This document shows positions 539 through 14,095 of a DNA stretch of 14,708 nucleotides, one piece after another. The position numbers were made by a program, and so were the translations under genes. Within the stretch, counting starts at the first letter, position 1. Each line of letters opens with the position of its first letter. The notes below the pieces were generated by a model. That model was given only the letters and a program-made list of their open reading frames with translations, had not been told where the DNA came from and made no database searches. Source of the stretch: Haloarcula sp. (GTDB lineage Archaea > Halobacteriota > Halobacteria > Halobacteriales > Haloarculaceae); assembly GCA_028275075.1 (NCBI GenBank), contig JAQCNK010000285.1, positions 1-14,708 of the forward strand. Direction: 5' to 3'.

Positions 539-1798
539 CTAAGATTGGCCACCGAAGAATCGATGCAACAGCGAGGCTGGCTCTGAGTCATCACCGGTCT
601 CGATCGCAGTACTGGAGTCTTCCTCGTGGGATTGCGCAGTCTCCTGATCACGGGCTGCGAGTTCGTCGGTGAGGCGCTCGATCTCTGTTTCGAGGGTCTC
701 GATCCGCTCAGTCTTCTGTTCGAGTGTTGCCTCGAGTTCGTCGACGCGCTCGCTCAACAAGCGGTTTTTCTCCGCCAGATACGCACGACTCCGGTCTGCG
801 TCGTCTGGCGTACTACCAGCAGTGACCCCGTCAGGTTGGCCGTGAGAATCTTCGGTATCGCCGCCGGCGTCCGGGTCGTAGAACTCCGACGTGGTCGCAA
901 TCGCTCGCTCGATGGTCTTCTCGCCGTACGTCGATCCATCAGCGTAATGGACCTCGTCCCACTTCTCGCGGTGGAGCCCTGACTGGCGGAACAGCTGTTC
1001 CATCTGTGCCCGGTCGCCGCCGGTCCAGAACGCTAACAAACAACACAGCGCCATATCGGCCTCGGACTGGCTGTCGTACCCGACCGTGTTCCCGTTCCAG
1101 AGCCGCTCGAACTTCTCGCCGTTCGATGCGTTTCGCGCTTTCTCGAGGAGATCCTCGTCTTCAAGTTTGACGTCAACGTCAGCTGCACCGGTCGTCGGTG
1201 ACCGGGCGGCAGCGCCACCACGCTGTTCGGACTCGGCTGCTGGTTCAGTGTCGGTGTCCTGGACGTACTCGCGGTGAATCGCCGCGAGCGCGTCCTGTCG
1301 GCGCGCAACGCGACCGGGAGTCTCCTCGACGTGGTCGCCAGTGACGGTGAAAAACCGTGCCGTGTCGTACAGTTCGATGCTCCCCCGACGATTCCGCCCC
1401 TCCGGAAGTTCGCCCCTGATGAGCACGTGATAGCCGGTGCCGGACGGCGACACCTCCGTATAGGAGTCGAGTCGTTCGATGATATCCTGTGCGACGTCGT
1501 CGACGTCGCCGGTTTCCGGATCGCGACAGTCGTCCAGGTCAATGCCGACGATGGGGTCGTCGTCGGTAAACACGAACCCGACGCCATCAGCGTGCTCCGT
1601 CTTAGTGTACTCGAGTGCCGTCTCGAAGTTATCCCACGTCTTTTGCTCCGTCGACGACGCAAACCCGCCAGCCCCCGGCGTCACTGGAATCTTCGTTGGT
1701 TTCCCGTCTCGATCTTCTTCGCGCCAGCACACCCACTGCTCGATCTCGCGCAACCTATCCGGGACCGCTTCACTATCGATTGCGATATCAGCGTCCAT
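539..1798 (-). CDS. NrS-1-type primase-polymerase (archaeo-eukaryotic primase superfamily)
   Basis: This 419-aa protein probably synthesises primers or copies single-stranded DNA for the element. The N-terminal AEP/PrimPol core shows GIDLDDC (about 85-91; catalytic acidic residues), SGTGYHVLI (119-127; the conserved sGxGxH-type motif) and IELYDTARFFTVTGDH (141-156). After an acidic linker, residues about 212-304 match the helix-bundle domain of NrS-1-family polymerases, with ADMALCCLLAFWTGGD and YGEKTIERA. A leucine-rich coiled coil fills about 341-383, and the protein ends with LLHRFFGGQS. There is no helicase domain. I chose the ATG at 1798 over one 14 codons earlier because GGAGG lies 8 nt before it and the conserved region starts shortly after. 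A 367-bp gap from the secretion genes suggests its own promoter. Family call is strong; a role in conjugal complementary-strand synthesis is inferred. Confidence 0.88.
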   Translation of the reverse strand: MDADIAIDSEAVPDRLREIEQWVCWREEDRDGKPTKIPVTPGAGGFASSTEQKTWDNFETALEYTKTEHADGVGFVFTDDDPIVGIDLDDCRDPETGDVDDVAQDIIERLDSYTEVSPSGTGYHVLIRGELPEGRNRRGSIELYDTARFFTVTGDHVEETPGRVARRQDALAAIHREYVQDTDTEPAAESEQRGGAAARSPTTGAADVDVKLEDEDLLEKARNASNGEKFERLWNGNTVGYDSQSEADMALCCLLAFWTGGDRAQMEQLFRQSGLHREKWDEVHYADGSTYGEKTIERAIATTSEFYDPDAGGDTEDSHGQPDGVTAGSTPDDADRSRAYLAEKNRLLSERVDELEATLEQKTERIETLETEIERLTDELAARDQETAQSHEEDSSTAIETGDDSEPASLLHRFFGGQS

Positions 1799-1806
1799 CA
1801 GTGATT

Positions 1807-1811
1807 CCTCC
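1807..1811 (-). promoter_or_regulatory. Shine-Dalgarno site fixing the primase start
   Basis: GGAGG on the minus strand lies 8 nt before the ATG at 1798. The in-frame ATG 42 bp further upstream would place this sequence inside the gene, so the shorter start is preferred. Confidence 0.6.
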
Positions 1812-1928
1812 GTGGACCACTGACTGAATCCAGCGAACAAACTACATCATCTTCTCGAAATGTCCTTCGACTACCGGCACCCTGTCCGATCTGCCTGTCC
1901 CCGCACTGTTCTGCGGATGCAACCCAGT

Positions 1929-1936
1929 GTATATTA
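1929..1936 (-). promoter_or_regulatory. Possible TATA element for the primase gene
   Basis: On the minus strand this reads TAATATAC and lies about 130 bp before the primase ATG, so it would give a leader of roughly 105 nt. Directly upstream is AACCAAC (1937-1943 reversed), a half-site identical to 7 bp of the arms of the two flanking inverted-repeat elements. Assigned by eye only. Confidence 0.3.
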
Positions 1937-1960
1937 GTTGGTTTTGGTGGCCGGTATTGG

Positions 1961-2042
1961 GTGGACAGTAGCCAAGTCATGCGATTTTGCGTGGACAGCT
2001 GTGTCCATGCAGTTCGCCTGGCTGTCCAGTCTGCGTGGACAG
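1961..2042. repeat. Cluster of GTGGACAG / CTGTCCAG short repeats
   Basis: Three direct copies of GTGGACAG start at 1961, 1991 and 2035, spaced 30 and 44 bp apart. One inverted copy lies at 2022-2029, and TGTCCA at 2002-2007 pairs with the second copy. They fall just upstream of the presumed primase promoter, so they could be binding sites for a regulator or replication/transfer protein. Confidence 0.55.
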
Positions 2043-2135
2043 ATGACTGAAATGCCGTATTCTGGGCAGATAAGAGTCTATTCCGGGGAAAAGCGTGGGC
2101 TGTCTCCCATTGCAGTTGGATGCCCATTGAGCCGC

Positions 2136-2166
2136 AATTATACTGTTTCATATTTCTGGTATAATT
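2136..2166. repeat. 8-bp inverted repeat at the end of the coupling-protein gene
   Basis: AATTATAC (2136-2143) and GTATAATT (2159-2166) are perfect reverse complements separated by 15 nt. The element abuts the coupling-protein stop codon (2168-2166). In RNA it would form an AU-rich stem at the mRNA end, so it may be a termination/processing signal or an operator. No long T-run follows on the minus strand. Confidence 0.4.
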
Positions 2167-5100
2167 CATTCTTCGAGCAGTCTGTTCCCCTTCTCTGTCA
2201 GGGTGAGTCCGATATAGAATTGGACGCGCTCACCGTCCACTCTGGACCGGTCGCTGTCGAAGTCGACTGTGTCCCGTAACTTCCGCGTGAACCAACCTTT
2301 GTTTGTCCCGTCAATATCGTGCTGGTCAGTCCACTTTGAATATGCCTGGAACACGTCCTCTTGCGGTACTTTGACGCCATCGGCTTGCCTGACGTACATC
2401 GCGGTGAACGCTTCAACGCCATCGCCATCCGGATCGATGTCCACCGACTCGTCTGTCGCCGCCGACTCCGGACCATCCGTATCTACTGGCTCCTCGTCGC
2501 TCTGAGCATTCGTCGAACGTTTCGACTGGGCTGCGTTATCGGTGGGGCCGTCCAGCCATAGCTCCTCGTGGTCCGGCGATTCAGACAGTTCGTGCGTCTC
2601 GCCCTGTTGGAAGCGTGTGGGACTGCCGTCTGCTGGGAGGATCAACACGAGGTAGCTGTCGCGCGAATAGTCTCCGTCTGGCAGATCGACGTCGGGGAGG
2701 AACGGCTGTTTGATCGGTGTCCACTCCGCCTCGAACGCGTCTTTCGAGTCGTACGTCTGTGTCTCACCGGGTTTGTGGACGGTATACTGGCCGGATTCAC
2801 GGTCGTGACTGTAGTACGCTGGCACGTCATCCTTTGAGAGCACCCCCTCGTCTGGAACGCGGGCGAACTCCCTCTCACCATCCGACAAGACGCGCTTCCC
2901 GTCTTCGCGCCGCCAGACTGTCCGGTTCGTATTGGACGTATAAGCTCGAACGGCGGTGACGCCACCGTGGGCTGTTGCGCCACCGCCGAAGGTCACGGAC
3001 TCGTCACAGTTGTAATACTGTTCGGTGCCGTCCGCCCGCTCTCGAAGCGGTACTGAGAGGATATTCTCGACGCGTGACGCCCACTCCGTCTCGGGGTCGC
3101 CTGGCCGGACGACGAAGATTGGGATACGATCTGTGTCGTGCGCTCGTTTGAGGTTCTGCAAGACTTTCGCGGGGCGATCCGGTGTCGTCGTCTCGGCCTC
3201 GATGTTGAACACGACATCGTGGTCAGGATGCGTCGCGATGGCGTCGGGTTGCTCGCTGCCGTCCTGTTTGAGGATATCGACACTGAACCCGCGCTCGGTG
3301 AGCGCCTGCTCGGTCTCAACGAGCACTGCATCGTGGTCGGACCCGCCTGCCGACTCCACTCCGCCTGTCTTGGGCTGGACCTCCGCTTCGCCCTCCTCGG
3401 ACAGTCGTGCCACGATATCGCCGTCCTGTAACTCAACGTCGATCAGCGGCGACGCGTCACGCACCTCTGGCAGGTCGTCGTCCGCATACTCAATGTCAGG
3501 ATGGCTGTTCTTGAGGCGGATCGAGAGTTCCTCGTCGACATCGACGACGTCTACCCAGCCGTTCTCGTCTCGGATGCCCTCCCGCAACTGCACTGCTCGA
3601 ACCGCCTCGGCCATCGTCTCGCCCAGTATCTGCGTTGGGTTCGCTGCTTCGTTGGCGTCGCTGTAAATGAGATTCTGCATTATCTCCGCGTCGGTCAGCG
3701 GGTCAGTCCCGTATCGATCCAAACTTGCCTCGATGATGTCGTCGACCGCATCCGATGACCGTAGCGGGGGATACGGCGGGAACGTCCGGAGGAGGACCGG
3801 TTCGGAGTATCGACCGCCCTCTAACGGGAGCTTTGTCCAGGCTTGGTACTGATCCGTCGAGGTCAGGTCCTCCGCCGTATAGTCACGGAACCGCTTCATC
3901 AGCAGCTGGGCGTCGTCGACGTCGTTCACGGAGAAGGCGATGAGGTTATCGCAGTTGTTCTGCATCGCCTTACGCGTGTCCTCGTCGAACTGTGAGGGAT
4001 ACTGCGAGGACAAGGTCACGGAGAGGCGCATCGACCGGGCGCGAGCAAGCATCGATTCGATATCGAGGTTTTCACTCGCGATGTCGTCGAACTCGTCACA
4101 GAGCACGAAATACGGCTCTGGATCGGTATCACGCTCGTAGGACCGTTGTTGGATGACACTCCAGAGGTTCCGCATCACACCGAGCGTGACCATCTTCTTG
4201 ATGTCCGTGTTCTCGACGGGCGTGCGAACGATGACGATCCGGTCGTTGTCGATGATGTCGCGGAAGTCGATGGTACTCTCGCGGTGGGAGATGATCCGCC
4301 GGATGACCGAGTTTTCGACCCACGACTTGATGCGTTTGAGCAGCGGTCGGATCGTCTCGTCGTCCATCCGTGCAATTTCGAGACAGAACTCTCTGACGTA
4401 CGGATCGTCGACATCGTAGGCGAACTCCTCGCGGCGCTCGGCGTGCAGTAGCGTGAAGTACATATCGATCACCGAGAACGGCTGGTCGGACTGCATCATC
4501 GCCCGGCCCATCGATTCGGTGATCGACTCCATGTTGATCCCCCAGTACTCGTCCGTATCGAAGATCGCTTTCAGGTTCTCGATGCGATTCTCGATCTCGT
4601 TTTCACGCTCTTCTTCAGTGTCGCAGTCGGGGACTTCGAGGAAGTTCAGCCCGACCGTCTTGTCGTGTTCGGACGAGCCAGGTTCGATCCAGACGACGTC
4701 GTCGAGTCGGTCCTCGGGAAGCATCCGCAGCAGTTCCCGAGAGTCGCGGCCCTTCGGGTCGAAGTAGACGAATCCATACCCTGAATACGCCCACTGGACC
4801 ATCATGTTCAGCAGTTCCGTCGTCTTCCCATAGCCGGTGGTGCCGGTGATCCAGATGTGGCGGAAGAGTGACTCAAACTGGAGCGGGGCTTCACGGAACC
4901 CCCGTTGAGCGTCCTCGTCGTACCCGATCCACAGCGGCGATGGCGCGGTATCGACGCCCGATTCAAGCATCTCACGAACATGAGAGCCAGCGACAGTGCC
5001 CTCGTTCACCGTCTCGGTGACGACTGGTTTGCTGCCGACGTAGTCCGTGTCCTGCTCGGTGATGTCGTACGACTCGCCGAGGAGTGACTGCGGATCTCGA

Positions 5101-5249
5101 CTGGTCTCGAACGTTGTATCCCCGCTGGTTGCACCGTTTCCGTTACCTCTCGTCTCCGTTGGGGAATTCGCGTCGTGTGATGCGCTGGATGCGTCTGCAT
5201 CTGACGCAGTGTCCTGGTCCTCGTCGCGACCGAAGAAGCGATCAAACAC
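2166..5249 (-). CDS. VirD4/TraD-like coupling ATPase with C-terminal nuclease-like and winged-helix domains
   Basis: This 1027-aa protein is the likely DNA pump/coupling ATPase of the secretion system. A low-complexity acidic start (1-55) leads into a HerA/VirD4-type ATPase, about 105-500. It has Walker A GTTGYGKT (136-143), Walker B YFVLCDEFDDI (380-390) and the downstream SSQYPSQF (414-421). Residues about 640-735 look like a PD-(D/E)XK nuclease-fold domain: PDAIA (668-672), FNIEAET (681-687) and K695. Residues about 946-1027 resemble the winged helix at the C-terminus of D5-like primases (VFQAYSKWTDQ, WFTRKLRD, LTLTEKGNRLL). I see no membrane segment, although VirD4 proteins usually have one. 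The start is GTG with GGAGG 8 nt upstream, overlapping the preceding gene by 8 bp. The ATPase call is strong; the two C-terminal assignments are by eye and tentative. Confidence 0.88.
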   Translation of the reverse strand: MFDRFFGRDEDQDTASDADASSASHDANSPTETRGNGNGATSGDTTFETSRDPQSLLGESYDITEQDTDYVGSKPVVTETVNEGTVAGSHVREMLESGVDTAPSPLWIGYDEDAQRGFREAPLQFESLFRHIWITGTTGYGKTTELLNMMVQWAYSGYGFVYFDPKGRDSRELLRMLPEDRLDDVVWIEPGSSEHDKTVGLNFLEVPDCDTEEERENEIENRIENLKAIFDTDEYWGINMESITESMGRAMMQSDQPFSVIDMYFTLLHAERREEFAYDVDDPYVREFCLEIARMDDETIRPLLKRIKSWVENSVIRRIISHRESTIDFRDIIDNDRIVIVRTPVENTDIKKMVTLGVMRNLWSVIQQRSYERDTDPEPYFVLCDEFDDIASENLDIESMLARARSMRLSVTLSSQYPSQFDEDTRKAMQNNCDNLIAFSVNDVDDAQLLMKRFRDYTAEDLTSTDQYQAWTKLPLEGGRYSEPVLLRTFPPYPPLRSSDAVDDIIEASLDRYGTDPLTDAEIMQNLIYSDANEAANPTQILGETMAEAVRAVQLREGIRDENGWVDVVDVDEELSIRLKNSHPDIEYADDDLPEVRDASPLIDVELQDGDIVARLSEEGEAEVQPKTGGVESAGGSDHDAVLVETEQALTERGFSVDILKQDGSEQPDAIATHPDHDVVFNIEAETTTPDRPAKVLQNLKRAHDTDRIPIFVVRPGDPETEWASRVENILSVPLRERADGTEQYYNCDESVTFGGGATAHGGVTAVRAYTSNTNRTVWRREDGKRVLSDGEREFARVPDEGVLSKDDVPAYYSHDRESGQYTVHKPGETQTYDSKDAFEAEWTPIKQPFLPDVDLPDGDYSRDSYLVLILPADGSPTRFQQGETHELSESPDHEELWLDGPTDNAAQSKRSTNAQSDEEPVDTDGPESAATDESVDIDPDGDGVEAFTAMYVRQADGVKVPQEDVFQAYSKWTDQHDIDGTNKGWFTRKLRDTVDFDSDRSRVDGERVQFYIGLTLTEKGNRLLEE

Positions 5250-6369
5250 GATCCTCCCCTCCCAGTTCGGTCGGTCGTTCGCCAGAACGTTGTCTGACCT
5301 CTGTGTCTTCGTACTGATCTGTATCGGCGGGGACGCGGTCGCCGCGCTGGGTGTAGCGCCAGTCGATGTTCGGCGTCTCGATTTCGTTGTTCGGGATGTG
5401 AGCGACGCCGGCGAGTTCGTCGACGGTCATAATCATGCGCCGGTCGGTCCACTCGCGGTCAGCCATCTGAGAGACGTGCTGGCGGAGCTGGCTCGCGCGC
5501 TTGCTGTCCTTGCGATGCCACACTGGCGTATCGTCGAGGCCCTGCTCGGTGATGGCGTTGTAGTACTTCCTGAACATTCCGGCGACCCCACGGGCACGCG
5601 CCTCCGCTTCGTCTTTGTCCGTAGACGCTGCAAGGACGCGGATGTTGACGTGGAACGCCTGCTGGCCACGTTGCTGTTCGATAGTCTTGGCGGCCTGCTT
5701 GTCCTTCTCGCTCGCTGGTCGCGTCCGAGGATTCAGCCACCCGACTGAGGTTCCCTGTCGGAGTGCGTGGGCGAGGTCGTCGACGCTGTTGTGCTTGAAG
5801 CGGTCGCCGTCCGTCCAGGATTGCTTCGCCGGGCGAAAGACGACTTGCGTGACGACTGTGCTGTCGTCGAGGGAGAGCATTTCGCTCGTGATTTCGCCGT
5901 AGGGGTCCGTCGCCCATTCGTCGCTGTTGTGGTGACGGATCGGATAGTACGGGAGTTTCTCCATCTTCAGCCACGCACCAGCGACGTACTCATCGTGGTC
6001 GATCACGGGGAAAGCAGCTCCACCGTCGACGGGGAATACCTCCGAATTCGCGTAGTTATTGCCGACGCGGCGGCGGAACTTGTCGGCGGCCGCTTCGGTC
6101 GCGGCGTGCATGAAGAATTTGACCTTCCCCTCGTCGAACCAGACCTCGAAGGAGTGGTGGTTGCTCGTGTTCTTCCCCCGGAAGTTCGTCGTCACGTCGT
6201 GAACCGACTGGAGGAGGCCAGCGCCGTCGACGACATCTTGATTCTCCTTGAACGGCCGAATCCGGAGCAGAATCCCCGGCGCATCCCGCGCGTGCTGGAC
6301 GAGTGGCTCGTCGATCGGGAGCTGTGTGGCGTCGTACTGTGGGTTGCCCCCCAAGAGCCCATCAAGCAT
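5242..6369 (-). CDS. DUF8128-like partner protein of the coupling ATPase
   Basis: This 375-aa soluble protein has no membrane segment. Residues 1-25 are a short acidic lead-in. The middle is mixed alpha/beta, with FHVNIRVLAASTDKDEAEAR (239-258) followed by a helix containing MFRKYYNAI. Near the C-terminus MIMTVDELAGVAHIPN (312-327), then ETPNIDW, resembles the 'LxxxELAxLxHlP…tP' signature that I recall (DUF8128) in the N-terminal part of archaeal and bacterial VirD4-like proteins, where it is normally fused to the ATPase. Here it is a separate gene just upstream of the ATPase and overlapping it by 8 bp, so the two gene products together match the fused form. I chose ATG at 6369 rather than the in-frame GTG at 6375 because GGAGGT lies 8 nt before the ATG. 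The overlap with the VirB4 gene is also 8 bp, suggesting coupled translation. Exact function unknown. Confidence 0.78.
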   Translation of the reverse strand: MLDGLLGGNPQYDATQLPIDEPLVQHARDAPGILLRIRPFKENQDVVDGAGLLQSVHDVTTNFRGKNTSNHHSFEVWFDEGKVKFFMHAATEAAADKFRRRVGNNYANSEVFPVDGGAAFPVIDHDEYVAGAWLKMEKLPYYPIRHHNSDEWATDPYGEITSEMLSLDDSTVVTQVVFRPAKQSWTDGDRFKHNSVDDLAHALRQGTSVGWLNPRTRPASEKDKQAAKTIEQQRGQQAFHVNIRVLAASTDKDEAEARARGVAGMFRKYYNAITEQGLDDTPVWHRKDSKRASQLRQHVSQMADREWTDRRMIMTVDELAGVAHIPNNEIETPNIDWRYTQRGDRVPADTDQYEDTEVRQRSGERPTELGGEDRV

Positions 6370-9300
6370 CGTCACTCACCTCCTCGTCGGCCTGGCGTGC
6401 GTCTTCACCGCCGTCAGCGAGCGGGGACGACTCCGCCGTGCCGTTTCGCTGTGCGTTCGCAACAACTGCGTCGACGATCTCCGCCTCGGAGAGTTCTCTG
6501 TCAAGCAGTTGGGTTACTTCTTCCTCGCAGAGGTCGTAGCGGCTGGTCAGCGCGTTCATTTGCGCCTCGTTCTCCACGAATGCCTCGAAGTCGACCAACT
6601 CCTCAGACTGCTCGCTGATGGCCTGCTGGATGAACTCCTGATCCGCTGGTTTGTAGTCGATGACGCGTTTCTCGAACGGGTCCGCAACGATGTGCAGTGG
6701 ATACGTCCCGTGTTCCTCGACGCGAACGAGCGCCTGGCTGTAGCCGAGGTCCTCCTTGCCGGCGTCGGCACCACGGACGTACTGGCGTTGCTCGCGCGTC
6801 AGCCCGATCTTGTCGGCCGTCTCGTCGTCCAAATCTGGCAGTTTATGGAAGACCTTGATCGGACACATGCCGAGAATCTTCTCGGCCTGGTCGGTCTCGT
6901 AGAACTCCTGGGCGGTCTGGGAGAGCAGCACCATCCGAAGGCCGGCGTGGCGCTGGTGGCGGAACGCCGTTTCGAGGAAATCGAGATTCGCCTGGTCCTC
7001 GAAGAGGTAGTGGGCCTCGTCGATAGCGAGTTCGACGTTCCGGTCGGTCTTCTTCGCCTGCTGGTAGACCGTCGACAACAACAGCTGCATCAAGAAGGTC
7101 TGGCGGTCGATCCCCGACGCACTACCTTCGATCTGGCCGAGGTCGATGTAGACGACCTTGTTGTCGCCCTCGAGGATATCGACTTCCGAGCGCTCAGCGA
7201 GGTTGTCGTACGACCCGCCCTCACGGAACGGCTGGAACGCGATTGCGAGTTCATCGGCGTACTGTGCGGCGCGCTCGCGGGCCGATTCGGACGCGGCGAT
7301 ATTGTGCTCGTCGGGGTTCTCCGCGATATCGGCGAGAATCCGATGCACGTCTGTCATCGTCGGCGAATTCTCGGGCGTGTGCGTCGCGACGTCGTCCTCG
7401 ACGACGCCTGCTTGGCGGTAGGTCTCGTCGATGACGTACGAGAGGACGCCTGTCTCGGTCCCGAGGTCGATGTCGCGAGCGGTCAGGAAGTTCTCGAGGA
7501 CTGCGTACACTTCGTCTTTCTTCGCGGACAGCGGCGAGATGCCGTCATCGGCGTCGAGGACCTCCTGCGGTGTCTCTCGGATCTCCAGCGGGTTCAGCTG
7601 TGTATCGCCACCGACCGTGATCGTCTTCGCATCCAGGGCGTCGGCGATACCCCTGAATCCACCGACTGGATCGATCATCACGAGCATCGTGTCCTGCTGG
7701 CGTTTCATCATCCGCAGGTGGCGCATGATGTCGCCGAACGTCTTGCCAGCGCCGGGCATCCCGACGACGAGTTCGCTGTGGCCGGTTTCCAGATCCCACG
7801 GGTTGATCTGGACGGGCGAGCCGTTGTGGCCGTGGTAGCCGTACTCGACGCCCTCGTCCATCATCATGTAGTTCGACGAGAACGGGAACATTGCGCCGAC
7901 GGCCTGGTTCGTCAGCGTCGACATCCGGTCGCGACCGAGTTCATTCGCACCGAGCGGGGAGACAGTCGCCAATCCCTTCTCCTGCCAGCGGTTCGCGACT
8001 TTGAGCGTGCAGTTCGCGGGCGCATCCTTGACTATCGAGCGCAGCCGCGTTGTCTGAGTGTCGAGTTCCTGCTTGCTCTCGGCAGACAGGCGGATGAAGA
8101 CGCCGCCACGGTAGAACGACGCTTTGTTCGCCCGGACGAGCGACCGCATGAACTTCCCACGGCCGATGTCCTCCTGGAGGTCCTCGGCTTTCAGGCTGTT
8201 CGAGTCGTGCTGGTTGACCTTCAGATCCGAAATCCAGTCAGCCATCATGTCCTCAGCCGATTGGCTGTCGAAGGGGTCGAGATGGATGCTGATGTCCGTG
8301 TTCAGGTCGGTCTCTAATAGCAGGCGCTCGAATATCCCGTCGGCTGGCTCTTCGGGGAACTGCTCAATCCAGAACGTCCGAACGTACGTGTCGTCGTTGA
8401 TGACGGCATGGGTCGTCTCCCAATCGACCGACGTCGGCGCGATTACCGACTGGTGGAGTGTCGACGTATCGTCGAGTCGATTCGCAGCGGACACATCGGT
8501 CGTGTCGGCTGAATCTGTCTCTTCACCGTCGTCCCCATCGAGGTCGTCGACGGAGACATCCCATTCCTCGCTCTCTTGGTCGTGGCTGTTGGTCGTCGCA
8601 GTCTGCCTCATGGACTGGCCGTCGTTCATCGCGTCGACGACGTCGTCCGGGTCGGGGGTCGCCGGTACGTCGTCGCTGATGCCGTGGGCGACGACCGGGA
8701 ACGTGCCGATCGCATCGGTGATCTCCCCGTACTCTTCGGTGTGTCCTGTCCAGTATTCTTTCGTGACGCGGGTGAGGTCGTAGGCGTCGACAGGATTCAT
8801 CGAACAGCGGTAGAGCGACGACCCACCGCGACGCAGTTGACCGAGCCGGGATTCCAGCTTGTCTTCCTTGAGGCGGTCGCGTTCGGCTTCCGAGAGGCCG
8901 TCGGACTGGAACCGGCCAAACACACGTCCTAGAACAGGAATGTCGGCGAGGTAGGCGAGGACGCTATCGCCGGTTTCGTCGAGTTGTTCGACATCCTCGT
9001 CGCGGACGGCGGTAATGATGTAGTACTCGCGGATGGTGGTGGTCTCGGAGTCGATGTCGCCGTTCTGGTCCGTGTTCGTGGTGATGTACTCGTCGAGTAG
9101 CCGTTTGAGGACTGGCCGAGAGCGGACGTCGGCGTCGCCGAGACGACGCTGGTGGTCGCGGACGACGTCGTCCTGGTCGACCTCCCGGCTGGTGATGTAG
9201 AACTTCACGGGGAAGTCGATGGTCGCGTTGACGAACTCGGAGAGTGAATCCACGGCTTTCGCCCACGCGTCGTCGTCCTCGAGGGCCATGTTCGCTGGCT

Positions 9301-9709
9301 CAACCTTCATCGCGCCGACGAGCGCACCGTCGGAACGCTCGATAGCGTGCGGAAAAACCTGGCCTACGCGGGTCAGGTAGCGGACCTCGCTGTTGTCTTC
9401 GCCGTGCGTGTACTCCTTGTTCTTGACTGCCCAGCCGAGACGGGCCGCGAGCCACTCGGTGAGCCACAGGTAGGAGGGTTTGACCTTGTGGAGCACGCCG
9501 AGGACGAGGCCGAGCATGAGGCCAAATCCGAGAACGGGAATCGTGAAGGCCGCCGGGACCAGCGCTGCGCCGACGAGCGTGATGAATGCAACGCCGACGA
9601 ACAGCATGATCTCGCCGATTGTGTATCCCTGGAAGAAGGCGGTCGTACCGCCGAGTGACTTATGGATTCGTCGGGCGCTATACTCCTGGTCGTCAGTGTT
9701 CGTACTCAT
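6362..9709 (-). CDS. virB4: VirB4-family secretion ATPase with N-terminal PrgI/VirB3-like membrane domain
   Basis: This 1115-aa protein is the likely motor for pilus assembly and DNA transport. Residues about 1-100 hold two membrane segments (about 30-51 and 53-73) followed by YLWLTEWLAARLGW, like the PrgI/VirB3 proteins that are often a separate gene next to virB4. The VirB4 N-domain (about 110-350) contains RSDGALVGAMKVEPANMAL. A halophilic acidic insert, about 345-415, interrupts it. The ATPase core has Walker A GMPGAGKT (650-657), MLVMIDPVGGF after it, Walker B VELAIDEAHYLF (892-903) and the VLLSQTAQEF motif (927-936). A helical, acidic C-terminal tail follows from about 1020. The ATG at 9709 is preceded by GGTGATG and lies 6 bp after the VirB6-like gene. 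Family assignment is firm. A long antisense open frame (6248-8317) is a shadow of this gene. Confidence 0.95.
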   Translation of the reverse strand: MSTNTDDQEYSARRIHKSLGGTTAFFQGYTIGEIMLFVGVAFITLVGAALVPAAFTIPVLGFGLMLGLVLGVLHKVKPSYLWLTEWLAARLGWAVKNKEYTHGEDNSEVRYLTRVGQVFPHAIERSDGALVGAMKVEPANMALEDDDAWAKAVDSLSEFVNATIDFPVKFYITSREVDQDDVVRDHQRRLGDADVRSRPVLKRLLDEYITTNTDQNGDIDSETTTIREYYIITAVRDEDVEQLDETGDSVLAYLADIPVLGRVFGRFQSDGLSEAERDRLKEDKLESRLGQLRRGGSSLYRCSMNPVDAYDLTRVTKEYWTGHTEEYGEITDAIGTFPVVAHGISDDVPATPDPDDVVDAMNDGQSMRQTATTNSHDQESEEWDVSVDDLDGDDGEETDSADTTDVSAANRLDDTSTLHQSVIAPTSVDWETTHAVINDDTYVRTFWIEQFPEEPADGIFERLLLETDLNTDISIHLDPFDSQSAEDMMADWISDLKVNQHDSNSLKAEDLQEDIGRGKFMRSLVRANKASFYRGGVFIRLSAESKQELDTQTTRLRSIVKDAPANCTLKVANRWQEKGLATVSPLGANELGRDRMSTLTNQAVGAMFPFSSNYMMMDEGVEYGYHGHNGSPVQINPWDLETGHSELVVGMPGAGKTFGDIMRHLRMMKRQQDTMLVMIDPVGGFRGIADALDAKTITVGGDTQLNPLEIRETPQEVLDADDGISPLSAKKDEVYAVLENFLTARDIDLGTETGVLSYVIDETYRQAGVVEDDVATHTPENSPTMTDVHRILADIAENPDEHNIAASESARERAAQYADELAIAFQPFREGGSYDNLAERSEVDILEGDNKVVYIDLGQIEGSASGIDRQTFLMQLLLSTVYQQAKKTDRNVELAIDEAHYLFEDQANLDFLETAFRHQRHAGLRMVLLSQTAQEFYETDQAEKILGMCPIKVFHKLPDLDDETADKIGLTREQRQYVRGADAGKEDLGYSQALVRVEEHGTYPLHIVADPFEKRVIDYKPADQEFIQQAISEQSEELVDFEAFVENEAQMNALTSRYDLCEEEVTQLLDRELSEAEIVDAVVANAQRNGTAESSPLADGGEDARQADEEVSDDA

Positions 9710-9715
9710 GAATCA

Positions 9716-10912
9716 TCACCATCGTGAGACCTTCTCTTTCGTTTTCCTGAACGCCTGCTTCGACCGGGCTTTCGCCGCCTGTGATGTCCGACTGGCGTCT
9801 TCTTTGGCCTTGTCGCGCATCCGGCCGGTTTTCGACTGCCGCAGGTTGTTGTAGCGGCCTGCGTGCCACTTCGCGGACTGCGCGGAGGACCCGAGTGTGT
9901 AAGCGTTCGAGTCGCCACTCCCGAGTTGGGATTGTCCGCTTTTCGTCACCGGGCCAGCTTTGTTCTGGGCGTATCCTCGATGTACGTTCCGAGCACCGCG
10001 AACAGATTTTCCAGCACCGGACTTCGCTGCTGAGGCGGCAGCCATCGGATTCGTCTTGGTCGCACCGTGACGAGCGATTGTCTTGACCGCCGGAGCAGAC
10101 CAGTAGACGGTCATAATCGAGGCGATACAGGCCGCCGGGATGAGCACGAGGCCGAGGAACAGTGAGAAAATTCCACTGGCACTCGCTGTAAGGTCCATCT
10201 GCCAGCCGATTCTGAAGAGGACGGCAGCAGGGAGTCCGGCAAGCACGAGCCCTGGATAGATGCCAGCTGCGCGGCGTGCGATCTCCGAGGCGGGACTGAG
10301 CGGCCACACGTCCAGCGCCCAGAAGACACCGAGTAACGGCATCAACGGCGTTAGTACGAGGATTCCCAGCCAGCGGAGACCATAGACGAGGCCGGCGACG
10401 ATTAGGAGAAAGTTCGAGACGAGAACCATCACGAGAACAACAAAGAGGCCACCGACAGCTGATTCGATGAGGCTCCCGAATCCCGCCGACATATCATTAA
10501 TCGGGGCGAGTGTGAGCCCCACCGCATCGATGAATTGGAGCGGGACTGATACAAGTGGGAACCAGACGAACGAACCCATGAACACAAGCCCGATGCGCCT
10601 GAGGAGACGCTTTCGTCGGTATGGACTGATCGACCCGGACCGGAGACCGATGTACGCGAGCCCAACGATGAGCAGCATTATTGTCAACGGCAGGATGTAC
10701 TGGAGATAGAAATCCGCGTAGAGGCTCTCCCATGGCGCATTATCGGGAGTGCCGGCAACGATGTATCTGGAGTTTGACTCTGGCGCAGGGACGCCGGCAA
10801 TCGGATTGAGAAGCGCTCTGAAAATGTCATTCGCGAATCCGAGGAATGCCTCTTTGATGCCGTTGATGACGCTCTTGATGGCGTTCTGTACCTGCTCCTC
10901 AAGCCATCCCAT
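9716..10912 (-). CDS. VirB6/TrbL-like polytopic membrane protein with basic tail
   Basis: This 398-aa protein is probably the inner-membrane channel component. An amphipathic start (GWLEEQVQNAIKSVINGIK) and the helix to about residue 40 lead to roughly six hydrophobic segments: about 68-91, 106-130, 153-178, 181-200, 217-235 and 247-271. This is a VirB6/TrbL-like arrangement, and the position directly before virB4 fits. From about 277 to the end the tail is rich in Lys, Arg, Ser, Ala and Gln and poor in acidic residues (for example KARSKQAFRKTKEKVSRW), unlike the usual acidic bias of halophile proteins; it may contact DNA or partner proteins. The ATG directly follows the stop of the lipoprotein gene (TAA-ATG, zero spacing), with GGGGGAGAT a few bases upstream. 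Function is inferred from topology and context, not from a diagnostic motif. Confidence 0.75.
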   Translation of the reverse strand: MGWLEEQVQNAIKSVINGIKEAFLGFANDIFRALLNPIAGVPAPESNSRYIVAGTPDNAPWESLYADFYLQYILPLTIMLLIVGLAYIGLRSGSISPYRRKRLLRRIGLVFMGSFVWFPLVSVPLQFIDAVGLTLAPINDMSAGFGSLIESAVGGLFVVLVMVLVSNFLLIVAGLVYGLRWLGILVLTPLMPLLGVFWALDVWPLSPASEIARRAAGIYPGLVLAGLPAAVLFRIGWQMDLTASASGIFSLFLGLVLIPAACIASIMTVYWSAPAVKTIARHGATKTNPMAAASAAKSGAGKSVRGARNVHRGYAQNKAGPVTKSGQSQLGSGDSNAYTLGSSAQSAKWHAGRYNNLRQSKTGRMRDKAKEDASRTSQAAKARSKQAFRKTKEKVSRW

Positions 10913-11800
10913 TTAGGCATCTCCCCCGTTCGACGTCGTTTTGGTCGAGCCAGTCGGGCCGCCGTCGACGATGGTTAGATTGCACGAGTATTTCTCCCCA
11001 CCATACTCAATCGTCTGTGAATACGACGGATTCGCTCCAGCTTGGAGGGTTCCCGTGGCAGTGAGCGTCTCCGTCTCTAACTCGCCGCAATCAATGGCAC
11101 CGTACACGCCGGTCGGGTCTTCTGTCTGATAGACTGGCATCCTCGTGTAGATGGTCGTCTCACCGGGTGACAGAAGCCGGTTCAGATTGGTCGTCACTGT
11201 ATCCGACGCAGATACCTTTGCCTGCGGTGAATTGCGCCACTCTACTGCCGTGAGATACGTTGGTGCATTGCCCGTATTCTCCACGGTCAGGGCGGCGAAT
11301 TGCTGCCAAGCTGACCCGCTCTTATTCCAGTTCATGTCTGGGCTATTCTGTGCCCAGATGACATCCGTGATCGTGACCTGGGGTTCGAGAGAGATCGTCG
11401 TCTCGCCAATAGTCTTGTCGCCAGCGACAGCGACGACGCGGTACTCCCCGAGCGTATACCCGTCTTCGGTTTCCCCAAGTAGCTGAAATGTTACCTGCGT
11501 CGCTCCTTCTTGGACGCGCCGGAGTGAGTTCATCTCCCCATTCGGGTTGATGAGATTGACCGAATCAGCCTTGGTATCGCTGGCGAGTTCGACAACGAGA
11601 GCGGTCTCGGTCATCGCGACGCGCTCGAAGGCGTCGATCTTACTTCCAGGCGGTGGCGATGTCTCGGAACTCGGGCTGTTGGTATCGGATGGAAATGAAG
11701 AACAGCCAGCGAGAGCGACGAGCGTTCCGCTGAGCCCACTGAGAACGGTTCGACGGCCAATACGCCTGTCATGGTTGGATGCGTCTGTGGTGTCGTTCAT
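10913..11800 (-). CDS. Tat-exported lipoprotein of the secretion cluster
   Basis: This 295-aa protein is predicted to be surface-anchored. The N-terminus has the twin-arginine motif GRRTVLSG (15-22), a hydrophobic stretch and the lipobox LAGC with Cys33 as the lipidated residue, the typical haloarchaeal Tat-lipoprotein arrangement. A Ser/Thr/Pro linker (34-54) follows, then a beta-rich region containing LTVENTGNAPTYLTAVEW (171-188), reminiscent of extracellular beta-sandwich proteins. Two cysteines (238 and 273) could form a disulfide. The frame extends 63 codons upstream inside the neighbouring gene, but ATG 11800 is the right start. It puts the Tat motif near the N-terminus and gives a 4-bp ATGA overlap with the previous gene. 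By position and lipidation it could play a VirB7-like structural role; no sequence similarity to VirB7 is visible, so that is only an analogy. Confidence 0.8.
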   Translation of the reverse strand: MNDTTDASNHDRRIGRRTVLSGLSGTLVALAGCSSFPSDTNSPSSETSPPPGSKIDAFERVAMTETALVVELASDTKADSVNLINPNGEMNSLRRVQEGATQVTFQLLGETEDGYTLGEYRVVAVAGDKTIGETTISLEPQVTITDVIWAQNSPDMNWNKSGSAWQQFAALTVENTGNAPTYLTAVEWRNSPQAKVSASDTVTTNLNRLLSPGETTIYTRMPVYQTEDPTGVYGAIDCGELETETLTATGTLQAGANPSYSQTIEYGGEKYSCNLTIVDGGPTGSTKTTSNGGDA

Positions 11801-13557
11801 GTTCGATTTGAGAGACCGAGTAGTGCGCCATCGGACATGTAGTCGAAGCCGAAGACCAGGACTGCGAGCGGAATGAACCAGAGGATCGTCACGACGACAA
11901 GCTGGATGAGCGTCTGGAAATCGGGATAGTTTCCCGGCGTCTTTGCGACATCCGTTGCCGCTGCGTAGGGGCGATCCGTCCGCCACCACTCGGACGGCTG
12001 GTACTGCCCTCGTACGAGCGCCCCTGGATTCGAGAGCATGATGGTGGCCATCCCGCTGCTGTTGAGCGCCGCAGTCTGGTTGCGGATCGCCACGCGACCG
12101 CTGGTGACAGCCGCACCGGTCGCTGTCCCCGTGACCGTCGCACGGACGACCGCGTGGGTCGCGTTGGCGTTAGTGACCGTGAGAGTGAGGTTCGTCTCGC
12201 GGACGGTCTGCTGCTCGGAGAGAGTGACTGTTCGTGATTGCCCGCGAACGATCCCATGGACGCTGACCTCGCGGAAGGCGCTCCCGTCGAGGGTTGTGGA
12301 CGTCACGGCGACCGAGTCGGCGTTCACGTACGGGCTGGCAGACTCGAGGTCGATGTTCGGCGGCAGCGACGGTCCAGTCTGCTCCGTGCCCCAGGTTTCC
12401 TCGATGGCGAGTGGGCGCTCCCCATCTTCGGTCAAGTCGGTGGGGACGTACGGTGCTTGTCGACTCGGGAAGGCGTGAATCTGGACGGGACGCACCGATG
12501 ATGTCGCCCGTGACGTGTTGGTCGCGGTATTCGTGACCATCGTCTGCCAGCCGGCTCGACCGGCCGTGTAGAACCACCAGTTGCTCCGGGCGCGAACGTC
12601 GCCGTCGACTGAGACTGTCGACCATTCGGTATTCGGGTGGACGACCGCGCCGACCTGGTCCTCGCTGGTTTCGAACTGGACACGCTTGCCAGCGATATCG
12701 GTGAGCCGGTTGACGACGACGCGCTGTGACGTCGATACCGTTTTCGACGCTTCTGGTGTTTCGACATCTCGATTCCAATCCCCATCACAGCTGGTCGTTG
12801 AGGAGTTCCAATCGGGGCAGTCCAGCGTGACGTGACGCAACGTCACCGTGATGTTGGCTTCGACGGTCAGCTGCGGCGATCCTGAAAGACCGGTGTACTG
12901 GAGCGTCGCTTGGTGGCCACTCCCGCTGTCGAGCGTTCGCCCACCTGCGGAGAGTTCGACCGACTCGATCTGTGTTCGGTCGATTGACCAGCGTTCACGG
13001 TGCGATCCATTTCGATCATCCCGGGGAACGGCAACCCGGTAGTCACTGACTGTCCGGACTTGGCCGTCCGGGGCAATGTGCTGAGTTGTTCCGTTCGTAT
13101 GGTGGAGGATTGTCGAGGGCTGGGCGGTAAAGATGCTGACGTACGCATCTTTGATGTACACACCATCCTCAAGGGACGCACTCTCGGGGTGGATTGACTC
13201 GCTGCGGCCGCCAGGCGTGTAATCGCCGAAATCGCCGCTGTTCCAGTCTTCGGTAGCCTGTGGCGGGCGAGCAAATGGGATGTCCGTCGACCGAGCCAGC
13301 CGATAGGCGAACTCGGCGCGGGATGAGACGTTGGTGTCGTCGAAATCGTCAATCGAGAGATTACTGTTGTCGACATCCTCCGACCAAAGCCGCTGGAAGG
13401 TACTGTTGTTCACGCCGTAGGCTGGTCCATCGGCAGGCACAGCGTCACCCGAATCTGGTGGGGTGACAGCGTTGAAGCCTCCTGCAGCAACAATGCCAGC
13501 GGTGCCACTCACGAGCAGGAGGGCACACACAGTGGCCATTGAGCGACGGGCGGACAT
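11797..13557 (-). CDS. Secreted, membrane-anchored surface glycoprotein with Ig-like segment (possible adhesin)
   Basis: This 586-aa protein has a Sec-type signal peptide (SARRSMATVCALLLVSGTAGIVAAG, given here in part: basic residues 4-5, hydrophobic core about 8-25). A long beta-rich extracellular region follows, with about twelve N-glycosylation sequons (for example N51, N66, N76, N155, N183, N235). Near the C-terminus lies a transmembrane helix (about 549-571), ending in a short cytoplasmic tail YMSDGALLGLSNRT. Residues about 455-510 (TSGRVAIRNQTAALNSSGMA) look like an invasin/Big-type Ig-like repeat. Two cysteines (247 and 257) are close together. I do not recognise the rest. The position between the pilin and the lipoprotein/VirB6 genes suggests a cell-surface part of the transfer apparatus, perhaps for mating contact or for anchoring the pilus through the S-layer. 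No Shine-Dalgarno is visible at the ATG, and a 52-bp gap separates it from the pilin gene. Confidence 0.75.
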   Translation of the reverse strand: MSARRSMATVCALLLVSGTAGIVAAGGFNAVTPPDSGDAVPADGPAYGVNNSTFQRLWSEDVDNSNLSIDDFDDTNVSSRAEFAYRLARSTDIPFARPPQATEDWNSGDFGDYTPGGRSESIHPESASLEDGVYIKDAYVSIFTAQPSTILHHTNGTTQHIAPDGQVRTVSDYRVAVPRDDRNGSHRERWSIDRTQIESVELSAGGRTLDSGSGHQATLQYTGLSGSPQLTVEANITVTLRHVTLDCPDWNSSTTSCDGDWNRDVETPEASKTVSTSQRVVVNRLTDIAGKRVQFETSEDQVGAVVHPNTEWSTVSVDGDVRARSNWWFYTAGRAGWQTMVTNTATNTSRATSSVRPVQIHAFPSRQAPYVPTDLTEDGERPLAIEETWGTEQTGPSLPPNIDLESASPYVNADSVAVTSTTLDGSAFREVSVHGIVRGQSRTVTLSEQQTVRETNLTLTVTNANATHAVVRATVTGTATGAAVTSGRVAIRNQTAALNSSGMATIMLSNPGALVRGQYQPSEWWRTDRPYAAATDVAKTPGNYPDFQTLIQLVVVTILWFIPLAVLVFGFDYMSDGALLGLSNRT

Positions 13558-13609: not shown

Positions 13610-14095
13610 TCAAAATGGTTTGACACAATCGGAGAAGCCGAAGCCCATCTGGCTGCCAACCTTGTCGATGAGCGTCGGCGAGATGAGTGCTAAGACGACG
13701 ATGCCGAAGCCGATCCCGGACATGACGAGTTTTTCCTTCGCATCGTTTTTCTTCTCAGGGTTGCCGCCGGCACGCATGTACGAGAGACCAGCCTTCCCGG
13801 TGTAGAAGCCGGTGGCCGGCAGGCCGAGGCCAGCGATCGCACCGAAGACGAGGTCGATACCAGTATCGACGCCCGTCCCACAGTAGACGTCGCCGACCTG
13901 ACTCTGGGCAGCGGCCGGGCCGACGGCGACGACGAGGAACGCAAGCCCCATCGAGAGGGACAGTACTCGCGGGGGCGCGCGAGCGAGCGTCGCCTTGAGA
14001 CGACGGGTGATCTGGGACTGGGGCGCCTTGTCATCTGTAGAGGGCGATTTAGTAGTCGGTGCGTCGCTCGCGGAATCGGAGGGTATATTCTTCAT
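13610..14095 (-). CDS. VirB2/TrbC-like conjugative pilin
   Basis: This 161-aa protein has the pilin layout of VirB2/TrbC. A long polar n-region (1-43) precedes a hydrophobic signal segment (about 44-62) and a probable signal-peptidase site after AAA (63). The mature part of about 98 residues has two hydrophobic helices (about 79-105 and 123-143), joined by the hydrophilic basic loop RAGGNPEKKNDAKEK (108-122). Such a two-helix hairpin is the hallmark of conjugative pilins, and VirB2-like pilins are known in archaeal DNA-transfer systems such as Ced/Ted. Cysteines 72 and 157 flank the hairpin and could form a disulfide. It sits 15 bp after the RHH-like gene and heads the structural part of the operon. 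No Shine-Dalgarno is visible. Topology is clear; homology should be tested with a profile search. Confidence 0.72.
   Translation of the reverse strand: MKNIPSDSASDAPTTKSPSTDDKAPQSQITRRLKATLARAPPRVLSLSMGLAFLVVAVGPAAAQSQVGDVYCGTGVDTGIDLVFGAIAGLGLPATGFYTGKAGLSYMRAGGNPEKKNDAKEKLVMSGIGFGIVVLALISPTLIDKVGSQMGFGFSDCVKPF

Follow-up and report, generated by a model that had tools for sequence, protein, structure and literature searches.

A haloarchaeal coupling ATPase with a predicted nuclease-like domain and a winged helix, linked to a primase-polymerase gene and a conserved 15-mer

Coupling ATPases of the VirD4/TraG/TrwB type are the closest described relatives of a 1027-aa protein encoded on the minus strand of a 14.7-kb contig from Haloarcula sp. 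(JAQCNK010000285.1; hereafter the window, i.e. the whole stretch analysed), which belongs to an assembly that is 72% complete. Known VirD4-like motors are hexameric and usually, but not universally, have an N-terminal transmembrane anchor. The window protein belongs to the type IV secretion system (T4SS) operon of a haloarchaeon, in which it is the VirD4/TraG-type coupling ATPase; an earlier note drawn from this DNA had already described a coupling ATPase here. It has the ATPase motifs of the family, scores above the Pfam cut-offs (T4SS-DNA_transf, 28.5 bits against 20.1; TraG-D_C, 29 against 22; TrwB_AAD_bind, 26.6 against 20.5), and shares its operon with an upstream VirB4 gene and a PF18895 pilin gene. 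It differs from VirD4, TraG and TrwB in i) lacking an N-terminal membrane stretch by hydropathy (no strongly hydrophobic stretch was found, the highest 19-residue value within the first 130 residues being 0.11), ii) an additional tail with a nuclease-like domain and a winged helix, and iii) the absence of any Pfam Relaxase match on relative plasmids (n = 10). Judged by its sequence family, it would deliver DNA between cells.

The tail and the adjacent gene also have described counterparts. PD-(D/E)XK nucleases (BamHI, Hjc, VRR_NUC, FokI, PaqCI and HindIII) have the core topology of the window domain, with Asp at strand 2 and Glu at strand 3, and BamHI also has Glu in place of Lys, whereas an invariant H639, a large beta-rich insert and the fusion to a secretion ATPase set the window domain apart, and it has no sequence-level match to a solved nuclease. 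The phage P4 alpha protein and D5-like primases have the same type of winged helix at the C-terminus; P4 iterons share TGTYCA with repeats found here, and the P4 crr lies just past the alpha gene. In contrast, it is a transfer motor that bears the winged helix here, and the primase has a gene of its own, with no helicase part. The primase-polymerase of phage NrS-1 resembles that gene product, ORF433, in its primase-polymerase and helix-bundle domains, and the TTGGTT core of its recognition site is found in a conserved 15-mer next to ORF433; unlike it, ORF433 has no helicase domain, and the priming site is a predicted one. Streptomyces TraB with its clt site works alike (a pump plus repeats) but is not of the same family; it reads its repeats by a winged helix and is not known to have a nuclease domain or a neighbouring primase-polymerase. 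PMC4170104 describes TraB as a hexameric pump, homologous to FtsK, that recognises 8-bp plasmid repeats and moves double-stranded DNA. TraB shows that for transfer a pump and repeats can be enough.

We favour, with moderate confidence, the reading that the window protein is an archaeal coupling ATPase with its own DNA-processing tail, and that a cassette containing this tail does the work of a relaxosome. The computed basis consists of the domain identities, the invariance of four residues, the linkage of winged helix, primase-polymerase and 15-mer, and the exchange of the cassette between secretion systems. H639, the neighbouring primase-polymerase and the 15-mer between the two genes go beyond the earlier note.

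The nuclease-like domain

The interval 2166–3330 considered in the earlier note corresponds to the C-terminal 388 residues (640–1027) of the coupling ATPase, and the features named there (PDAIA, residues 668–672; FNIEAET, residues 681–687; K695; and the C-terminal region) are located as described. The nuclease-like domain proposed at residues ~640–735 is present but extends further: it starts at ~637 and runs to ~880–900 across a beta-rich insert, with the invariant H639 falling just outside the interval. Residues 637–899 are predicted to adopt a PD-(D/E)XK nuclease-type fold with an inserted beta-rich module. Structure prediction and fold search agree on the restriction-endonuclease-like fold that had been suggested, the structural alignments spanning most of the 280-residue model (e.g. 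13–265 and 10–274). The core has the alpha-beta-beta-beta-alpha-beta topology of the superfamily and the acidic pair D...(D/E) on strands 2 and 3; the third residue is the known substitute Glu, and the canonical Lys is absent. A profile search of the domain against solved structures returned nothing relevant (best E 0.73). Stand-alone versions of the domain were also found (10 matches of 87–226 aa, six of them 82–91% identical).

Conservation was assessed in i) a 76-sequence alignment, which includes the window's sequence and excludes one identical copy, ii) a 39-sequence domain alignment, which includes coupling ATPases without the winged helix, and iii) 10 deeper matches (9 distinct proteins, E < 1e-6), some from outside the window's taxonomic class (Table 1). 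H639, D669, E684 and E686 stay invariant though the rest of the domain drops to ~28% identity, and D669, E684 and E686 are the sole invariant positions among the 24 Asp/Glu positions of the 39-sequence alignment, with no loss in the deeper matches. K695, put forward earlier as a displaced catalytic lysine, was rejected; the deeper matches carry Q, N, R, T or M there. Since His, Asp and the two Glu are kept in all ten deeper matches and Lys in none, the E-x-E is the family's own conserved variant and not an obvious decay, and the suggestion of a degenerate active site is weakened because E-x-E is as invariant as D669. At the canonical Lys position, BamHI has Glu and BglII has Gln (PMC4081073), and replacement by acidic residues as well as migration of residues is on record for the superfamily (PMC1189080). 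The conserved residues suggest that the domain is probably a nuclease and metal-dependent.

Alternatively, the PD-(D/E)XK-fold domain may be inactive and grip DNA or a partner, the coupling protein selecting its substrate without cutting. The replacement of the canonical Lys by Glu and the variability of K695 speak for this. We nevertheless consider an inactive domain unlikely, as a dead domain is not expected to keep exactly the metal-binding positions while the remainder diverges, and the same Lys-to-Glu replacement occurs in an active enzyme, BamHI (PMC4081073). Still less probable is that the nuclease serves defence, entry exclusion or the processing of incoming DNA and not the initiation of transfer. 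PD-(D/E)XK enzymes are common in defence, and the ATPase part matches the PADLOC defence ATPase model mad8 (8.6e-20). However, this match is confined to the ATPase, a VirB4-related gene is present in 62 of the 74 sampled loci (35/40 with and 27/34 without the winged helix), and the members with a winged helix adjoin a primase-polymerase gene and a conserved 15-mer.

Winged helix, primase-polymerase and their exchange

Residues 940–1027 match RFX and the phage P4 origin-binding domain; fold and family profile both identify a winged helix of the D5/P4-primase and RFX type, in line with the resemblance to D5-like primases seen earlier. Downstream of the coupling gene, ORF433 encodes an NrS-1-type primase-polymerase, with a primase-polymerase core and a helix-bundle domain (PF22763, E 2.5e-31; solved primases 6k9a, 2.4e-36, and 6a9w, 3.4e-36 over residues 30–328). 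A related primase-polymerase gene follows the coupling gene on the same strand in 38 of 40 loci with the winged helix versus 0 of 34 without it (Fisher 4.6e-19, for 74 loci that were hand-picked, not random, and are not independent). Detection was by phmmer at 1e-5, which more distant primase-polymerases would escape; 4 of the 34 loci without the winged helix had less than 3 kb downstream, and among the 38 genes, that of L130 is 1.9 kb distant and that of L126 is broken into two frames. The two remaining loci with the winged helix, L121 and L140, have no primase-polymerase in the fetched stretch; the 15-mer is present in L140 with one mismatch and in L121 in a three-mismatch form.

Identity to the window, taken from the best local match, differs sharply between parts of these loci. 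Class II relatives (L124–L140, 17 loci) have median identities of just 23% in the ATPase and, over 15 loci, 36% in VirB4, against 57% in the nuclease domain and, over 16 loci, 65% in the primase-polymerase (up to 89%). L091, L096, L152 and L153 show the opposite, with 70–81% for VirB4, 54–72% for the ATPase and 27–28% for the nuclease domain; no winged helix, primase-polymerase or 15-mer was found in their fetched stretches. Tail, 15-mer and primase-polymerase are therefore common to otherwise divergent secretion systems, and the opposite identity patterns indicate that the tail is exchanged together with the primase-polymerase, as a single cassette. In L116–L119, the coupling ATPase is 76–78% identical to that of the window, with just 33–38% for VirB4 and 30–31% for ORF377, the protein encoded immediately upstream; by sequence, the coupling protein and the remainder of the secretion system have been mixed too.

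The stretch between the two genes

The gap between the coupling ATPase and primase-polymerase genes, with starts set by a scripted rule, measures 271–388 bp in 36 of 38 loci, the window included. It contains a conserved 15-mer with the family form AAACCAACTAGTATA, from which the window's copy, AAACCAACTAATATA, differs by one mismatch. Within 2 mismatches the family form was found in 34 of 37 gaps but in only 1 of 3700 shuffled stretches, and it was found in none of the 34 loci without the winged helix. Exact matches to it number 59 and are spread over 41 of 381 genomes, with none for the reversed pattern; of 30 of these places that were opened, 27 had a primase-polymerase and 25 a winged helix. 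Three loci with the exact 15-mer (L184, L203 and L208) had no primase-polymerase detected in the 3-kb locus.

The other strand of the 15-mer contains TTGGTT (AACCAA in 30/37), which is the core of the NrS-1 recognition site TTTGGTTA (PMC8718748, which also reports a second, shorter motif). On the coupling-gene side of the 15-mer, TGTCCA occurs 1.95 times per stretch compared with 0.23 in shuffles; the window-wide number (10) is not above chance, and class II stretches have few repeats of this type. Of the 16 annotated iterons of phage P4, which are bound by P4's own winged helix, 11 have the sequence TGTTCACC. From this, the repeats found here differ by two bases: matches within two mismatches are enriched (188 versus a mean of 108), and matches within one mismatch are not (6 versus 10).

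The strongest rival to the transfer reading is a plasmid replication origin: tail, 15-mer and primase-polymerase would together make up its cassette, the coupling protein would use it as an address only, and replication would explain the conservation. The NrS-1 polymerase starts at a defined site, and such sites may be origins (PMC7102993); among the P4 iterons there is a region, located just past the alpha gene, that is required in cis. On the other hand, two relative plasmids have separate orc1/cdc6 replication genes, and the cassette is linked to a secretion ATPase (38/40). We regard an origin cassette as a possibility, though a rather doubtful one.

Among 14 class I loci, the winged helix is 68–80% identical to that of the window in the 7 with TGTCCA[CT]G repeats and 53–57% in the 7 with TGTTCAGG, even though in the ATPase and nuclease parts the second group averages at least as close to the window; the two groups were defined once the data had been seen, and winged helix and gap are physically linked. 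Over all 21 classifiable class I loci, the winged-helix difference by repeat type did not reach significance (p 0.09); differences in the opposite direction were found for the nuclease (p 0.004), middle (p 0.03) and primase-polymerase (p 0.03) parts. That the type of winged helix tracks the type of repeat is only a hint from sequence comparison.

A non-coding reading of the gap was rejected, as an open frame is present in most loci; the gap is better described as a candidate site that coincides with an open frame. In the window, the frame overlaps the stop and start of the neighbouring genes (ATGA and TGATG), and at least 95% of the length is open in 33 of 37 stretches compared with 52 of 1110 shuffles. 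Besides this open frame, the position of the best 15-mer match (105–146 bp ahead of the primase-polymerase start in all 37 gaps) suits the alternative that the 15-mer and repeats are a promoter/operator, or part of a small protein, and not a DNA-processing site. We think this unlikely, for the following reasons: 1) In six equal-length loci, the three codon positions differ at equal rates (0.322, 0.300 and 0.312), with 933 nonsynonymous versus 158 synonymous codon differences and no sign of purifying selection on the amino acids. 2) The 15-mer is retained outside the open frame in 4 of 34 cases. 3) A general promoter would be expected at far more than 59 exact places in 381 genomes. The open frame may represent a coupling leader superimposed on a DNA-level site, or else encode a small protein that changes fast. 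Strong single-strand folding of the gap was not significant (z -1.36).

Proposed scheme, distribution and gene context

We infer the following order of events. The winged helix most likely docks the motor on the repeats just downstream of the motor's own gene; the nuclease-like domain would then open or nick the DNA at the repeats, the motor would feed it to the VirB4/pilin machine, and the adjacent NrS-1-type primase-polymerase would start strand synthesis at the 15-mer. Such a swappable DNA-processing cassette possibly replaces a relaxase. The complete scheme, relaxase-free archaeal conjugation by a self-contained cassette (a nicking nuclease and an origin-reading winged helix on the ATPase, a cis site past the gene, and a primase-polymerase starting the replacement or complementary strand at the 15-mer) that is exchanged as a unit between T4SSs, is put forward tentatively, as a minority expectation.

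The lack of a relaxase, assumed in the earlier note, is supported at the family level by relatives of this 14.7-kb contig. Pfam Relaxase (PF03432) matched none of 10 complete relative plasmids and TrwC (PF08751) none of the 4 tested, the archaeal Rep-Arvir family (PF25227) was found on 1 of the 10, and MOB-suite classified 112 of the 114 plasmid records matching the protein, some over the ATPase only, as non-mobilizable. Of 391 genomes sampled from the window's class, 186 gave a match to the tail, weak ones included; of the 44 genomes with weak matches only, the nuclease domain alone was also matched in 34 and not in 10. Related nuclease-like domains occur outside this class, and in five such loci (L166–L169 and L173) a VirB4-related gene adjoins a coupling ATPase with the domain. 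Literature searches among open-licence papers, judged by titles and abstract openings, showed no description of a nuclease-fused coupling protein in haloarchaea.

The main genes of the window, all on the minus strand, encode the pilin-type protein, two further operon proteins, a polytopic membrane protein, VirB4, ORF377, the coupling ATPase and the primase-polymerase (Table 1). The polytopic protein TM398 is probably the VirB6-like part. Six relatives (L093, L094, L095, L097, L150 and L160) have ORF377 as an N-terminal fusion to the coupling ATPase, so the two are probably a single functional unit. In L094, a giant coupling protein of 3296 aa (3367–13254, minus strand) combines parts corresponding to ORF377, the ATPase and the nuclease-like domain, and weakly matches the N-terminal model of DnaG primase (24.8 bits against a cut-off of 26); further giants are found in L095 (2441 aa, no DnaG N-terminal match) and L160 (3210 aa). 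At the window's edge, a gene cut by the contig end (3–326, minus strand) shows a DUF7342 match and weak helix-turn-helix matches.

Table 1. Features of the window, with positions, strand and supporting observations
Feature	Position	Strand	Basis or remark
Coupling ATPase gene, VirD4/TraG-type, 1027 aa	2166..5249	-	GTG start overlaps ORF377 stop
Walker A P-loop, residues 135–143 (GTTGYGKTT)	4821..4847	-	Sequence
Predicted PD-(D/E)XK-type core, residues 637–745	3015..3341	-	AF2 models; Foldseek and VIA-align 2 matches
H639	3333..3335	-	Kept in 76/76, 39/39 and 10/10 deeper matches
D669, PD half-motif	3243..3245	-	Kept in 75/76, 39/39 and 10/10 deeper matches
E684 of E-x-E	3198..3200	-	Kept in 75/76, 39/39 and 10/10 deeper matches
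E686 of E-x-E, at the usual Lys place	3192..3194	-	Kept in 75/76, 39/39 and 10/10 deeper matches
K695, lineage-specific	3165..3167	-	71/76; 30 K, 7 Q and 2 R of 39; K in 0/10 deeper matches
Beta-rich insert (~746–865) and closing strand/helix of the nuclease-like fold (~866–899)	2553..3014	-	Boundaries approximate
Winged helix, residues 940–1027	2169..2432	-	
Gap between coupling ATPase and primase-polymerase genes; candidate cis-acting site; also 123-codon open frame	1799..2168	-	Gap lengths, open-frame tests, sequence
Five TGTCCA repeats	1962..2041	both orientations	5 of the window's 10 TGTCCA fall here
Conserved 15-mer	1930..1944	-	Gap comparison, genome scan
NrS-1-type primase-polymerase ORF433, helix-bundle domain, no helicase domain	539..1798	-	ATG at 1798, TGATG overlap with open frame
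ORF377, operon accessory protein	5242..6375	-	Comparison with relatives
VirB4-type ATPase	6362..9709	-	NF045971 7.2e-51 and TIGR00929 6.1e-17, both below curated cut-offs
Polytopic membrane protein TM398	9716..10912	-	Hydropathy, synteny
T4SS pilin-type protein	13610..14095	-	PF18895 3.4e-9

For thaumarchaeal conjugative elements, in which no relaxase was found, a transfer of double-stranded DNA has been suggested (PMC6563490). For the preparation of DNA for transfer in archaea, the locus described here places a candidate enzyme with four residues, a candidate cis site and a candidate primase side by side. With matches in nearly half of the sampled genomes of the window's class and related domains beyond it, the question is directly testable in culturable haloarchaea. 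The finding points to one possible way of readying DNA for transfer in archaea that does without the usual nicking enzyme.
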